Part shown: one piece after another, positions 30,242-40,928 of the stretch
Layout of the letters: the number at the start of each line of letters is the position of its first letter
How positions within the stretch are numbered: position 1 is the stretch's first letter
Assembly: GCA_944324645.1 (NCBI GenBank)
Contig: CALUXB010000001.1
Span: 124,001 to 188,000 of the forward strand
Source of the DNA: an uncultured Elusimicrobiales bacterium
GTDB lineage: Bacteria > Elusimicrobiota > Elusimicrobia > Elusimicrobiales > Elusimicrobiaceae
Direction: 5' to 3'
DNA length: 64,000 nucleotides
The notes under the pieces: generated by a model
Databases searched by the model: none
The model's input: only the letters and a program-made list of their open reading frames with translations
Told to the model about the DNA's origin: nothing
Program-made: the position numbers and the translations under genes

Positions 30242-30256
30242 TAAAATATTTGTATG
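30242..30256 (+). promoter_or_regulatory. -10-like TAAAAT six bases before ATG
   Basis: TAAAAT (30242-30247), ATTTGT, ATG at 30254. No Shine-Dalgarno; predicted leaderless start. The remaining 200 bases of this divergent gap hold no gene I can support. Confidence 0.5.
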
Positions 30257-31540: not shown

Positions 31541-32290
31541 TTATTTCTTCAGCTGCACTTTTGAAAACATATCGTACATAATAATACCGGCGGCGGCCGA
31601 AGCGTTTAAACTTTCCACACCGCCTTTCTGCGGAATGGAAATAATTTGGTCGCAGTTCTCAGCCGTTTTTTCGCGTATGCCGGTGCCTTCCGAGCCAATG
31701 ACCAGCACGGCGGGGGAAGCATAGTCGGTCTGCGTAATGGGCTGCCCGTCCATATCGGCGCCGTATATCCAAAAGCCTTCTTCTTTAAGGTCCAAAAGGG
31801 CGTTGGAGAGATTGCTCACTTCCACAATATTGACGCGCTCCACCGCACCGCACGCCACTTTATACACCGCCGGCGTCAGCCCCACGGTGCGCCGCTGCGG
31901 CAAGATAATGGTGGAAAAACCCAAGCAGGCCGCACTGCGGATAATGGCGCCCAGGTTTTGCGGGTCGGTCATTTCATCTACCGCCAGCCACAGGTCTTTT
32001 TTATTTCCGTTGGATTCGTATATGGCGGTGGAAAGCTTCATCAGCCGCACAGGCTGGGCTTTAGCCAACACGCCTTGGTGGTTGCCGTCTTTACTCAAGC
32101 GGTCCATCATTTTGACGTCCATACGGTCTATTTTGACATTGTTGCGCTTGGCCAGGCGGATAATCTCTTCTACGGCCCGGTGCCCGGCTTTGTTGTCTGC
32201 CACATAGAGCTGCACCACATTGCGCTTTTTGCTTTTTAATGCTTCCATTACAGCGTGAATGCCAAACAGAATATCTAAATTTTCGCTCAT
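31541..32290 (-). CDS. rlmB: 23S rRNA 2'-O-ribose methyltransferase, TrmH/RlmB type
   Basis: A 249-residue SPOUT enzyme with an N-terminal substrate-binding domain and the three knot motifs: VDEMTDPQNLGAIIRSA, VIGSEGTGIRE and IPQKGGVESLNASAAAGI. RlmB methylates a guanosine in 23S rRNA using S-adenosylmethionine; other TrmH-family targets cannot be excluded. The start at 32290 (MSENLDILFG) has GGAG six bases upstream and is preferred over 32311. It is the last gene of the ispH-pfk-rlmB run. Confidence 0.9.
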   Translation of the reverse strand: MSENLDILFGIHAVMEALKSKKRNVVQLYVADNKAGHRAVEEIIRLAKRNNVKIDRMDVKMMDRLSKDGNHQGVLAKAQPVRLMKLSTAIYESNGNKKDLWLAVDEMTDPQNLGAIIRSAACLGFSTIILPQRRTVGLTPAVYKVACGAVERVNIVEVSNLSNALLDLKEEGFWIYGADMDGQPITQTDYASPAVLVIGSEGTGIREKTAENCDQIISIPQKGGVESLNASAAAGIIMYDMFSKVQLKK

Positions 32291-32314: not shown

Positions 32315-33415
32315 TTAGCCAATTTGGGCCGAGCCAAAGCTCATCCCTACTTCCAGCGCGGTGCGCACTTCTTCGCTGTTGGGGTCCACCAGTTTGAGCT
32401 TGGAAATAGCGTCTGCGATTTTGCACTCCCCAATTGCCAACCCTTTCAACGCCACCATATAGCCAAACTTGCCTTCCAACACTAAATCCATTGCGCGGGC
32501 GCCAAAGCGGGTGGAGAGCCAGCGGTCAAACGGCGTGGGCGTGCCGCCGCGCTGCAGGTGCCCCAGCACCACCACGCGGCTTTCCACGTGGCAGGCTTCT
32601 TCCACCATATTGCTGATTTTAAAGCCAATGCCGCCCAGACGCACCGGGTCTGTAGAACCTGCCACCGTGCGGGTGACGGCTTGCTCTCCGGCTTCGTTTT
32701 TGGCTCCTTCCGCGGCTACGATAATGCTGAAGTTTTTGCCTTTGGAGCGGCGGTCCAAAATAAAATCTACAATCGTTTGCTCATTATACGGGATTTCCGG
32801 TATCAGCACGATATCGCCCCCGCCGGCAATGGCGGAGCGCAGGGCAATCCAGCCCGCGTAGCGGCCCATCGTTTCAATAATCATTACGCGGTGGTGGCTT
32901 TGGGCGGTGGTGTGAATGCGGTCCACCGCGTCGGTGGCTACGGACATAGCGGAGTCAAACCCAAAGGTCAAATCCGTGCAGGAAAGGTCATTGTCTATAG
33001 TTTTGGGAATGCCCACCACCGGCATACCCAGCTCTACAAATTGCTGCGCCATATGCAGGGTGCCGTCGCCGCCGATGGCAATTAACGCATCCAAACCGTT
33101 TTCTTTAAAATTGTGCATTACCACCGATGAAAGGTCGCGCGGGTTTTCCGGCGTGCCGAAGGGCGGCAGCGTATAGCGGAAAGGGTTGGCGATGTTGCTG
33201 GTGCCTAAAATGGTGCCGCCCAGCGTTAAAATACCGGATACGGCGTGCTCATCAATTTCAATAAATTCGTTGCGCACCATTCCGTCAAAGCCGTTTTTAA
33301 AACCCAGCACTTTGACGCCGTGGCGCAAGGCGTTTTTGCTTACCGCGCGTACAACGGCGTTGAGCCCCGGGCAGTCTCCACCTGCCGTTAAAATACCAAT
33401 TTTTTTCACACCCAT
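32315..33415 (-). CDS. pfkA: 6-phosphofructokinase, group with mixed ATP/PPi signature
   Basis: A 366-residue phosphofructokinase that makes fructose 1,6-bisphosphate. Motifs: ILTAGGDCPGLN, IGGDGTLHMA, PKTIDNDLSCTD, ETMGRYAGWIA and LGHLQRGGTPTPFD. The Gly in GGDG favours ATP as phosphoryl donor, whereas the Lys in PKTIDND is shared with PPi-dependent enzymes and group III. ATP use is therefore more likely, but not certain. The start is at 33415 (GGAGGG upstream), not at 33463. It lies 15 bases after the ispH fusion and 25 before rlmB. Confidence 0.93.
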   Translation of the reverse strand: MGVKKIGILTAGGDCPGLNAVVRAVSKNALRHGVKVLGFKNGFDGMVRNEFIEIDEHAVSGILTLGGTILGTSNIANPFRYTLPPFGTPENPRDLSSVVMHNFKENGLDALIAIGGDGTLHMAQQFVELGMPVVGIPKTIDNDLSCTDLTFGFDSAMSVATDAVDRIHTTAQSHHRVMIIETMGRYAGWIALRSAIAGGGDIVLIPEIPYNEQTIVDFILDRRSKGKNFSIIVAAEGAKNEAGEQAVTRTVAGSTDPVRLGGIGFKISNMVEEACHVESRVVVLGHLQRGGTPTPFDRWLSTRFGARAMDLVLEGKFGYMVALKGLAIGECKIADAISKLKLVDPNSEEVRTALEVGMSFGSAQIG

Positions 33416-33429
33416 ATTCCCTCCGAAAA

Positions 33430-35118
33430 TTAAATAAAACGGGAAAGCCACGCCAGCAGCCACAGCACAAAGAACTGACCGTCAATAAGCGTTTCTTCCT
33501 TCACCCCGCGTGAAGCCGGGTGGCTATAATAGTATATTACTATAAAAATCGTATAGAGATTGCCCAACAGAAGCATTCCCACCAAAGCCGGTTTCCACGT
33601 AATAAGCAACAGAGTTACCAGCACGGAAGTCAGCAAAATAAGCAGCGCCGCCACCGCCAGCTTAGTCTTGCCAAAACCAAAGGCTTTGTAAAAGCTTTCT
33701 TTGCCAATCATCAAATCTTTGTTGGCGGAAGTAAAGCCCAAGGTAACCGAGCGCATAAACACCAAAAGCACCGCATAAAAAATAGCCAAATACAGCGCTT
33801 TGCGCAGCATCATGCCGTTGGCAAAAGCGGGCAGAAACGCACAGGAAAAGCCCCACCCCAGTGCGGTAAAAAAATCTTTTGTGCCAGGTAAGGAAAGCAT
33901 TTTTGATTTTAGGAAATGACGGAAAGGATACAGAAGACCCGCCGCCATAAAAGCGGCTGCCAGTGCAAAAACTTGCCCGCCCATTTGCCACGCCACCCAC
34001 AGCCCCAACCCGGCGGCGATAAAACCAGTCAGGGCGGAAAGACGCCCAGCGGGGCGTGCCTTGTCTTCAAAGGCCCGGTTGACGGTGGTCAAACTAAACA
34101 CAAACAGCCAAGAAAACAGCAACGGCTTAATTTGAGAGTGCAACCCTTCCAGCTTCATACAAACATACGTTAAAGCCACCGCGGCAAATGCCGTATAGAA
34201 AGAATAAGATACCCCTTTGGCCCACAGCCGCTGCAGCATACCCATAAAGGCAAAGCCCCGGTTGGCGCGTGTGTGGCGCACCCATTGGGCCACTTGGTCA
34301 ATGACCCAGTTGGGCGTAGAGGCGCCGGCAGTAATAAAAATATGTTTAGGGGCGAGTACTTGCTGCGGGGTAAGCTCCTCCTCCGTTTCAATGTGCAGCA
34401 CCGCCGGGGCCAGCTCTTTGCACAGCAAGGCCAGGCGGGCGGTATTGGCGCTGTGTTTGCCGCCTACCACGATAACCAGGTCCGCATTTTTGGCCATTTG
34501 TATCGTTTCGCTTTGGCGCAGTTTGGTGGGGTGGCAAATGGTGTTTGAAATTTGGCATATGGCGGATTTTTGTTTAATCACTTCCGCCGTTTCAAAAAAT
34601 ACGCTTTCTTTTTGGGTGGTCTGCGCTACCACGTTGACTTTGTCAAAAGAGGGTAATTTTTGGGCTTCTTCCGGCCCGGAAACAACAACGCCTTTGCCTT
34701 GCGTACAGCCCAAAAGACCGATGACTTCGGCGTGGCCGCTGTCCCCCACAATGACGGTGTGATAGCCCTGCTGGGCATACTGGGAAATAACGTCGTGGGC
34801 GTGTTTGACCAGCGGGCAGGTGGCGTCCACCACTTCCATGCCGCTTTGCAGCACTTCTGCGCGGAAAGCCGGCGTGATGCCATGCGCGCGGATCACCAGC
34901 ACGCCGTTTTTGTCGGCGGCTTGTTCGGGCCGGTCCACAGAGGTAATTTGTTTGGCCGCCAGCATATCGGTCACTTGGCGGTTGTGAATAAGCGGCCCCA
35001 GTGTGTAAATGGGTTTCTTGCCGGAAGCTTCCAGCTCCAATACTTTGTCTATAGCGCCTTTGACCCCGGGGCAGAACCCGGCGGATTTGGCGACAATAAC
35101 GCCCTGGTCTTTATCCAT
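33430..35118 (-). CDS. ispH: IspH (HMBPP reductase) fused to a UbiA-like membrane domain
   Basis: A 562-residue fusion. Residues 1-285 are a full IspH: AGFCPGV, DATCPLVKHAH and SNTICHPTKLRQ carry the three cluster Cys, LGPLIHNRQV, IRAHGI and GHAEVIGLLG the active-site His residues, and GGKHSANTARL the substrate loop. It reduces HMBPP to IPP and DMAPP. Residues 305-562 form about seven to eight membrane helices. VNRAFEDKARPAGR and YPFRHFLKSKMLSLPGTKDF recall the two UbiA prenyltransferase motifs (NDxxDxxxD and the Y-x-K loop), although the Asp pattern is degraded. The fusion would place precursor supply at the membrane. The start has TATAAT six bases before it and no Shine-Dalgarno. Confidence 0.85.
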   Translation of the reverse strand: MDKDQGVIVAKSAGFCPGVKGAIDKVLELEASGKKPIYTLGPLIHNRQVTDMLAAKQITSVDRPEQAADKNGVLVIRAHGITPAFRAEVLQSGMEVVDATCPLVKHAHDVISQYAQQGYHTVIVGDSGHAEVIGLLGCTQGKGVVVSGPEEAQKLPSFDKVNVVAQTTQKESVFFETAEVIKQKSAICQISNTICHPTKLRQSETIQMAKNADLVIVVGGKHSANTARLALLCKELAPAVLHIETEEELTPQQVLAPKHIFITAGASTPNWVIDQVAQWVRHTRANRGFAFMGMLQRLWAKGVSYSFYTAFAAVALTYVCMKLEGLHSQIKPLLFSWLFVFSLTTVNRAFEDKARPAGRLSALTGFIAAGLGLWVAWQMGGQVFALAAAFMAAGLLYPFRHFLKSKMLSLPGTKDFFTALGWGFSCAFLPAFANGMMLRKALYLAIFYAVLLVFMRSVTLGFTSANKDLMIGKESFYKAFGFGKTKLAVAALLILLTSVLVTLLLITWKPALVGMLLLGNLYTIFIVIYYYSHPASRGVKEETLIDGQFFVLWLLAWLSRFI

Positions 35119-38558: not shown

Positions 38559-40928
38559 TTATTTGTCAGCGGTGAAGTCTTGCGCCGGGGCTTTGCTTTT
38601 CAGTATTGCCCAGGCCAAAATAGCCAGCAGCACAATCACGCACACCCAGCCTGCTTTGCCCAGCGGGGTGTAGTCGTTGTGGTAGTTCACAATAATGGGG
38701 GCCACGATGACTGCCACCATATTCACCACTTTAATTAAAGGGTTCACAGCCGGGCCGGCGGTGTCTTTTAAGGGGTCGCCCACCGTGTCGCCCACCACGC
38801 TGGCTTTGTGTCGCTCGGAGCCTTTGCCGGTGTTGGCGGCAATGTCGGAGGGTTCGTCCTCCACCACTTTTTTGGCGTTATCCCACGCGCCGCCGGAGTT
38901 AGCCATAAACACCGCCAGCAGCTGGCCCGATACGATGATACCGGCCAAGAATCCGCCCAGTGCTTCCACACCCATAGCCAGCCCCACCACAATCGGGGAC
39001 ACAATGCCCAGCGTAGCCAGCACAATCAGCTCTTTTTGCGCCGCAATGGTGGAAATGCCCACCGCGCGCGTATAATCGGGCTGGGCTTTGCCGTCCAGCA
39101 CTCCCAGTTTAAACTGCCGGCGCACTTCCAGCACAATCAGGCCGGCTGCGCGGTTGACGGCATTGATAGCAAAAGAAGAGAACAGCCACGGCAGCGCCGC
39201 ACCAATGAGCATACCCACAAACACCGTCGGGTTAGACACCACAATGCCTACTTGGGACAAAAGCGCCAGCGTTTTGCTTTCTCCGGCTTTTTGCCAGGCG
39301 TCATTGAGCAGGGTTTGCACATTGCTTACGTCTACCATATACGAAGCAAACAGCGCCACCGCCGCAATAACGGCAGAGCCGATGGCCACGCCTTTTGTGA
39401 TGGCTTTGGTGGTGTTGCCCACGCCGTCCAAATCTGCCATAATCTGGCGGGCTTTTTTGGTGTCGGCGTCGTCTTGCCCGTGCCAGGCCATTTCGCCAAT
39501 GCCGTTGGCATTGTCTGCAATGGGGCCGAAGGAGTCCATAGCCACGTTGTTGCCCGTCAGCGTCAGCATGCCGATACCGGTCATCGCTACGCCGTAGAGC
39601 ACAAAGGTAAAGGACTCCGAAGCGCTCAGCCCGTCAATGGTGCCGAAAATCAATACGGAAGCAAAAATGGAGGCAGCCAAAACAATGGTCGTCCAGACGG
39701 CAGATTCCATGCCTACCGCCAAACCGGAAAGAATGGTAGTGGCAGAACCTGTCGTGGTGGCTTTTTTCACTTCCTGTACGGGTTTTTTGTCCGTACCGGT
39801 AAAATATTCCGTCAGGCGGTCAATGCTGATAGCCAGCAGAATACCGATGGTGGTTACCGCAAAGGAGCGCCACCAGCCGCCGGGCACTTGGTCCATATAG
39901 AAATAGGCCAGCGCGCCGAAAATGAGAATGGAAATGACCGCGGAAATACTGTAGCCTTTGAAAATGGCCTTCATTGCGTTTCCGGCGGTGCGGTTGGAAT
40001 CTTTTACCGCATAGGTGCCGATAATGGAGCACAACACCCCAATGCCGCGCACCAAAAGCGGATAGACAATCCATTCGTGGTGTCCGGTAATGCGCCAGAG
40101 CGAAATGCCCAAAATCAAACCCGACACAATGGTCACTTCGTAGGATTCAAAAATATCGGCTGCCATACCGGCGCAGTCGCCCACGTTGTCGCCCACCAGG
40201 TCCGCCACCACGGCGGGGTTGCGCGGGTCGTCTTCCGGGATGCCAGCTTCCACTTTGCCCACCAAGTCGGCGCCTACGTCAGCGGCTTTAGTGTAAATGC
40301 CGCCGCCTACGCGCATAAACAATGCCAGCAGCGTGCCGCCAAAGCCAAACCCCAGCAAAGCGTCCGGCGCGGCAATGCCGAAAATGATAAAGATGAGCGT
40401 GCCGCCCAAAAGGCCCAGGCCGTCGGTCAGCATACCGGTTACGGTGCCGGCGCGGTACGCAATTTTCAGCGCGTCGCCAAAGCTGCGTTTAGAAGCCGCC
40501 GCCACGCGTACGTTGGCGTCCACTGCGATGCGCATACCCAGCTGGCCTACTAACAGAGAGAACACCGCCCCCAACACAAATGCGCCCGCACGTCCAAAGG
40601 CGGCAATGAGTTTAATGGTGTCGGGCGCCAGCCCGGCAAACCGTTCCGACGCGTCGTGCGAAACGGGTACAATGTAGACCGATAGGAACAGACACACCGT
40701 CAGTAACCCAATTAACGGCAAAATGGTCTTGAGTTGTCTTTTTAAATAGGCGTTGGCACCTTCTTTAATAGCCGTCCATACTTTAAGCATAGCCGGCGTG
40801 CCGGTGTCTTCGCCCAGCACCTGGTTGCGTAAAAACAAGGCATATAAAAGTCCCAGCACCGCAATAAACAGTACGCCAAAAAGCGCATACTGTTCAAATG
40901 GGCGCAGGGCTGCAATCCCATACCACAT
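38559..40928 (-). CDS. hppA: membrane-bound proton-translocating pyrophosphatase
   Basis: A 789-residue protein with about 16 helices that couples pyrophosphate hydrolysis to ion pumping. The catalytic segment has GGGIYTKAADVGADLVGK, PAVVADLVGDNVGDCAG and, at the end, the DNAKK and GDTVGDPLKDTAGP motifs. In the K+-dependence region it reads GNTTKAITKGVAIGS. Lys and Thr at these places are the mark of the K+-independent, H+-pumping class, against Ala and Gly in K+-dependent enzymes. AAGGAGG precedes the ATG; TATAAT lies about 40 bases upstream. Confidence 0.96.
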   Translation of the reverse strand: MWYGIAALRPFEQYALFGVLFIAVLGLLYALFLRNQVLGEDTGTPAMLKVWTAIKEGANAYLKRQLKTILPLIGLLTVCLFLSVYIVPVSHDASERFAGLAPDTIKLIAAFGRAGAFVLGAVFSLLVGQLGMRIAVDANVRVAAASKRSFGDALKIAYRAGTVTGMLTDGLGLLGGTLIFIIFGIAAPDALLGFGFGGTLLALFMRVGGGIYTKAADVGADLVGKVEAGIPEDDPRNPAVVADLVGDNVGDCAGMAADIFESYEVTIVSGLILGISLWRITGHHEWIVYPLLVRGIGVLCSIIGTYAVKDSNRTAGNAMKAIFKGYSISAVISILIFGALAYFYMDQVPGGWWRSFAVTTIGILLAISIDRLTEYFTGTDKKPVQEVKKATTTGSATTILSGLAVGMESAVWTTIVLAASIFASVLIFGTIDGLSASESFTFVLYGVAMTGIGMLTLTGNNVAMDSFGPIADNANGIGEMAWHGQDDADTKKARQIMADLDGVGNTTKAITKGVAIGSAVIAAVALFASYMVDVSNVQTLLNDAWQKAGESKTLALLSQVGIVVSNPTVFVGMLIGAALPWLFSSFAINAVNRAAGLIVLEVRRQFKLGVLDGKAQPDYTRAVGISTIAAQKELIVLATLGIVSPIVVGLAMGVEALGGFLAGIIVSGQLLAVFMANSGGAWDNAKKVVEDEPSDIAANTGKGSERHKASVVGDTVGDPLKDTAGPAVNPLIKVVNMVAVIVAPIIVNYHNDYTPLGKAGWVCVIVLLAILAWAILKSKAPAQDFTADK

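Follow-up and report, generated by a model that had tools for sequence, protein, structure and literature searches.

A 64,000-nucleotide stretch of DNA from an uncultured Elusimicrobiales bacterium (the window) encodes a confirmed fusion of IspH to a UbiA-like membrane domain. IspH makes the five-carbon isoprenoid building blocks, reducing HMBPP to IPP and DMAPP. The fusion had originally been predicted from positions 33,430 to 35,118, and the gene was found there on the minus strand, as a single open frame running from an ATG at 35118 to a TAA at 33432-33430 and holding both IspH and a predicted nine-helix membrane domain. We read the product as an IspH tethered to the membrane, whose prenyl-diphosphate-binding domain is atypical but still functional, and we give this reading a probability of about 0.6. 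Computed results cover the single gene, the genuine IspH, the UbiA fold, the old and conserved fusion, the altered motifs, and at least two losses of the domain.

An identical junction between IspH and the domain, again in one frame, occurs in approximately 77 relatives' loci from separate assemblies, and dN/dS lies far below 1 in both halves (0.05-0.10 for the domain and 0.03-0.08 for IspH). A frameshift artificially joining two genes is therefore excluded by the one open frame and the junction shared among the relatives; together with the low dN/dS, this rules out the artefact reading, and we consider it extremely improbable that a frameshift, sequencing error, or misassembly produced the fusion. 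The same domain order in related genomes, which the original prediction had proposed to look for, is present, with the domain found in 93 of 341 Elusimicrobiota genomes.

The N-terminal half is a complete HMBPP reductase, as had been predicted. Residues 7-280 match the Pfam LYTB domain (PF02401) with 279.3 bits against a cut-off of 24.5 (E=3.8e-83), and the protein passes the NCBIfam model ispH_lytB (TIGR00216) with 262.4 bits against 187.85, while NF000907 covers the IspH part alone with a score under its cut-off. Across 55 fused homologues, C16, C101, and C195, which we take to be the 4Fe-4S cluster cysteines, are invariant, as are H45, H79, H129, E131, T168, S223, N225, and S267, presumably the active-site residues. 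This gene is the only one in its genome with a LYTB match above the cut-off; a second match (19 bits) was weak and was rejected. Like the IspH-RPS1 fusions, the protein joins IspH to a large C-terminal partner, but the partner there consists of soluble ribosomal protein S1 repeats, and no Pfam S1 match was found in the fusion protein.

The C-terminal half has a UbiA fold, clear from its predicted structure despite a sub-threshold sequence match. An AlphaFold2 model of the domain, built with 61 relatives, is helical (pLDDT 79.8, pTM 0.80), and in a Foldseek search of the PDB the membrane domain ranked UbiA superfamily structures 1-15, all with probability 1.00 (TM up to 0.67, best E 1.8e-4; 11-14% sequence identity for the closest matches). 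The full-length model places a short helix before nine membrane-length helices, in place of the seven to eight helices first proposed; its pTM of 0.52 leaves the relative placement of the two halves unresolved. At the sequence level, PF01040 scored 18.3 bits at residues 356-532 of the whole protein and 23.6 bits on the domain alone, both short of the gathering cut-off of 34.2, and a weak match was present in 30 of 61 relatives. Searching the PDB by sequence returned chance matches only. The predicted UbiA-like character thus stands on fold, and the structure prediction gave no different fold, while the sequence match stays weak and below the PF01040 cut-off. Coordinates of these features and of the neighbouring genes are collected in Table 1.

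Table 1 Features of the fusion gene and its surroundings (window positions; residues are those of the fusion protein).
Feature	Position	Strand	Basis
TATAAT box, 6 nt ahead of the start codon	35125..35130	-	Equal spacing in several relatives
ispH-ubiA-like fusion gene	33430..35118	-	562 codons plus stop TAA; junction common to ~77 loci
IspH (HMBPP reductase) domain, residues 7-280	34279..35100	-	PF02401 E=3.8e-83; TIGR00216; C16, C101, C195 invariant
Junction and short helix, residues 285-306	34201..34266	-	AlphaFold2 model; relatives' stand-alone IspHs stop nearby
UbiA-fold domain, nine predicted transmembrane helices, residues 307-562	33433..34200	-	AlphaFold2 models, Foldseek, alignment
Altered motif 1, N347-R-A-F-E351	34066..34080	-	Canonical N-x3-D-x3-D; second Asp absent
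K414-D415 pair, predicted cytosolic helix end	33874..33879	-	K 80/83, D 83/83
R456, invariant	33751..33753	-	83/83
Altered motif 2, D468-LMI-G472-K-E474-SFYKAF-G481	33676..33717	-	First Asp of DxxxD replaced, last kept; hhalign register
E542-TLI-D546-G-Q548, start of last helix	33475..33495	-	E 81/83, D 81/83, Q 80/83
6-phosphofructokinase gene, downstream	32315..33415	-	TIGR02483 423 bits, 7 below cut-off; NF002872 passed
rlmB, downstream	31541..32290	-	TIGR00186 passed; ispH-pfk-rlmB order kept with stand-alone IspH

Motifs and conservation were counted in an alignment of 83 domain members. All 83 sequences have lost two of the four canonical metal-binding aspartates, and a third is mostly Glu, so that the fused domain lacks the two Asp-rich motifs NxxxDxxxD and DxxxD. 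Motif 1 reads N347-x3-E351-x3-R355 in place of N-x3-D-x3-D, with N at position 347 in 78 of 83 sequences and E at position 351 in 71 (D in one). In motif 2, position 464 is S, H, A, N, Q, or T and never D (0/83; S464 in this protein), while D468 is present in 83/83 and both E474 and K478 in 82/83. The acidic residues are accordingly kept only in part, as predicted: D468 is retained, and S464 and R355 occupy lost Asp positions. Larger, mostly groundwater relatives carry in their ordinary UbiA/MenA genes motifs such as the canonical NRAIDARID (in L034) and QDKDFDRAEG where the fused domain has NRAFEDKAR and SANKDLMIG. Profile comparison (hhalign) with the UbiA/MenA proteins of groundwater Elusimicrobia was weak (E 0.016, probability 2.8%), and the motif register agrees.

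The K414-D415 pair was not seen in the canonical UbiA sequences compared. Nine charged or amide positions are conserved at 95% or more, all of them on the cytosolic side under a topology that we assigned from the predicted model (permutation p=0.011). In the motif loops, near residues 351-360 and 461-480, the model is uncertain (pLDDT ~50-59) and does not show the pocket directly. Compared with the UbiA superfamily (A. pernix 4OD5, A. fulgidus 4TQ3, and DGGGP synthase 6M31/7BPU), the fused domain shares the nine-helix fold and the positions of the Asn and the final motif-2 Asp, but identity is 11-14%, two metal-binding aspartates are missing, the third is mostly Glu, and conserved K-D, R, E, and K residues are new.

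The domain profile places the domain in 17 of 100 Elusimicrobiota genera, and the 93 carriers are mostly uncultured Elusimicrobia. Nearly all of these genomes have an open frame of approximately 550 codons or longer; the shorter frames inspected are genes cut by contig ends, and uncut genes are all fused to IspH. Scanning a genome collection returned 80 loci, in records labelled Elusimicrobia, Elusimicrobiales, or bacterium and including Candidatus Avelusimicrobium, probably the genus to which the window belongs. An additional member in G127 was missed by the domain profile; its fused domain (L178) is strongly diverged, with the conserved K-D reading K-E and the motif-2 region altered. Frames of 960-1009 codons containing IspH in other Elusimicrobiota were rejected as further fusions, being read-through over an upstream gene. 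In one of them (L181, G203) a gene directly upstream of ispH was recognised by eye as dxs, and L179, L180, and L182 likewise hold artefactual frames of ~1000 codons over the gene upstream of ispH. Among the matches listed, plasmid records contained ordinary IspH only, none covering 80% of the query, and the viral contigs searched gave no match.

IspH occurs without the domain in most other families of the phylum, and the fusion is present in a few genomes from two other families. One genome of another family (G185) encodes a stand-alone and a fused IspH together (L187, L188), which hints at horizontal transfer, although assembly contamination may account for the pair instead. Distances for IspH and for the domain correlate across fused members (r=0.90): the two are co-inherited, and the domain is under purifying selection. 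Given its dN/dS and the conserved, predicted cytosolic residues, the domain is therefore selected for a function, yet it is no ordinary UbiA.

Eight members of the genus encode a stand-alone IspH, and searching them with the domain of this protein found no copy relocated elsewhere. In two genomes of a second family, too, IspH stands alone and searches detected nothing of the domain. Because both stand-alone sets are nested inside fused sequences in the IspH tree, the simplest reading is that the domain was lost at least twice, leaving IspH alone. No PF01040 replacement was found in the genus members without the domain; with two losses and no such replacement, the domain is therefore not essential. 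In the six genus members with a stand-alone IspH that were examined, pfk is the next gene after ispH and rlmB comes after pfk, the order seen in the window.

In the window, the 6-phosphofructokinase gene starts 14 nt past the stop of the fusion, and the two are likely co-transcribed. The TATAAT box ahead of the fusion is a possible leaderless promoter. Similar boxes stand before the genes at 30254 (+), 49033 (+), 52073 (+), 51844 (-), and 58804 (-), and these elements end 4-6 nt ahead of the start codons, a spacing that suggests leaderless mRNAs in this lineage. The phosphofructokinase directly downstream is of mixed type, and a sodium-translocating membrane pyrophosphatase is encoded at 38559-40928 (-), at a distance of ~3.4 kb from the fusion; saving energy through pyrophosphate may be a theme here. 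No gene neighbour points to a prenyl acceptor.

The search for a separate ubiA or menA that the original prediction had proposed found none in the same genome: apart from the fusion it gave no PF01040 match, no quinone prenyltransferase was found, and it contains one FPP-synthase-type gene (PF00348) and one UppS gene (PF01255). The larger, mostly groundwater relatives also carry ordinary UbiA/MenA genes, and a second polyprenyl synthase is present in most of the larger genomes of groundwater type. UppP (PF02673) is equally present whether or not a genome has the domain, and no pattern of compensating gain or loss of polyprenyl synthase, UppS, or UppP accompanies it.

Under the favoured reading, the fusion would be the cell's only above-cut-off HMBPP reductase, with its C-terminal UbiA fold keeping it at the membrane's cytosolic face and the IspH half presumably working normally. 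For the prenyl diphosphate that the UbiA-like half would still bind, the pocket would be a remodelled one facing the cytosol, with N347, E351, K414, D415, R456, D468, E474, and K478 as candidate residues. The bound molecule might donate a short prenyl group to an acceptor or might serve to anchor and tune IspH. For the donor, DMAPP, FPP, or an undecaprenyl product would come into question in this genome, where the searches turned up a single FPP-synthase-type gene, a single UppS, and no quinone prenyltransferase. Several results count against this reading: with two of the four metal-binding aspartates lost and a third mostly Glu, ordinary transferase chemistry is doubtful, the domain is not essential, its sequence stays short of the UbiA cut-off, and its neighbours offer no acceptor.

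What such a domain does with its ligand divides the alternatives. It could be an active, atypical prenyltransferase in which E351, D415, and E474 replace the lost aspartates and IspH supplies DMAPP directly or by way of FPP. This fits the strong purifying selection and the invariant acidic and basic positions on what is predicted to be the active-site face; Rao et al. 2015 (PMC4746011) proposed transferase activity for the fusions of sulfate reducers, in which two DXXXD motifs are retained. The standard motifs are, however, broken in 83/83 sequences, no acceptor or pathway gene was found, and the domain is dispensable in two lineages; we hold this alternative to be possible, with the odds somewhat against it. 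The same loss of two metal-binding aspartates in 83/83 sequences, and the tolerance of whole-domain loss, would instead suit a UbiA relative without catalytic activity, which tethers IspH and, by keeping prenyl diphosphate bound, acts as a sensor or a local store. A plain anchor, though, would have no use for nine charged or amide positions conserved on a single face, and the conserved polar pocket disfavours a mere anchor; this alternative, too, falls short of an even chance.

Some other polyprenyl-lipid chemistry, for example dephosphorylation of undecaprenyl diphosphate, appears improbable: UppS is present, hence a C55 substrate exists, and the fold matches include a UbiA-fold phosphoribosyltransferase (8j8j, 8j8k), but UppP occurs alike with or without the domain, with no compensation. 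More speculatively, and in our judgement unlikely, the domain could be the founder of a group of UbiA fold whose active site has been rebuilt (E351, D415, D468, and E474) and which performs an undescribed reaction on prenyl diphosphate from its own IspH in bacteria without a quinone prenyltransferase. Of the two roles first suggested for the fusion, channelling of C5 products and anchoring of IspH, both are plausible, but channelling is weakened by the degraded transferase motifs and by relatives that live with IspH alone.

Contrary to the original view that no fusion of this type had been described, 47 IspH-UbiA fusions were published earlier, stated as all in sulfate reducers, mainly Desulfobacterales; their UbiA part has two DXXXD motifs and is classed as PT_UbiA_5. 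Membrane localisation and a high local concentration of IPP/DMAPP were proposed for them (Rao et al. 2015, PMC4746011). Those fusions and the present one have the same order, with the UbiA-type domain C-terminal to IspH, and both come from anaerobes or presumed anaerobes. They differ in that, going by the text of that paper, two DXXXD motifs stand where the motifs here are degraded, separate UbiA/MenA proteins exist there and none was found in the genome carrying this fusion, and the hosts here are Elusimicrobiota, with repeated loss of the domain. Rao et al. make no mention of Elusimicrobia (PMC4746011), and none of the papers searched names both Elusimicrobi- and IspH. The fusion type itself is thus known; the phylum, the changed active site, and the losses are new.

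With these results, a second phylum joins the known range of IspH-UbiA fusions, and a UbiA-fold domain is seen to have stayed under selection after its metal-binding motif was partly lost. Within one genus, close relatives that have the domain and others that lack it share the adjoining genes; this natural comparison makes the decade-old question of the fused domain's role testable.
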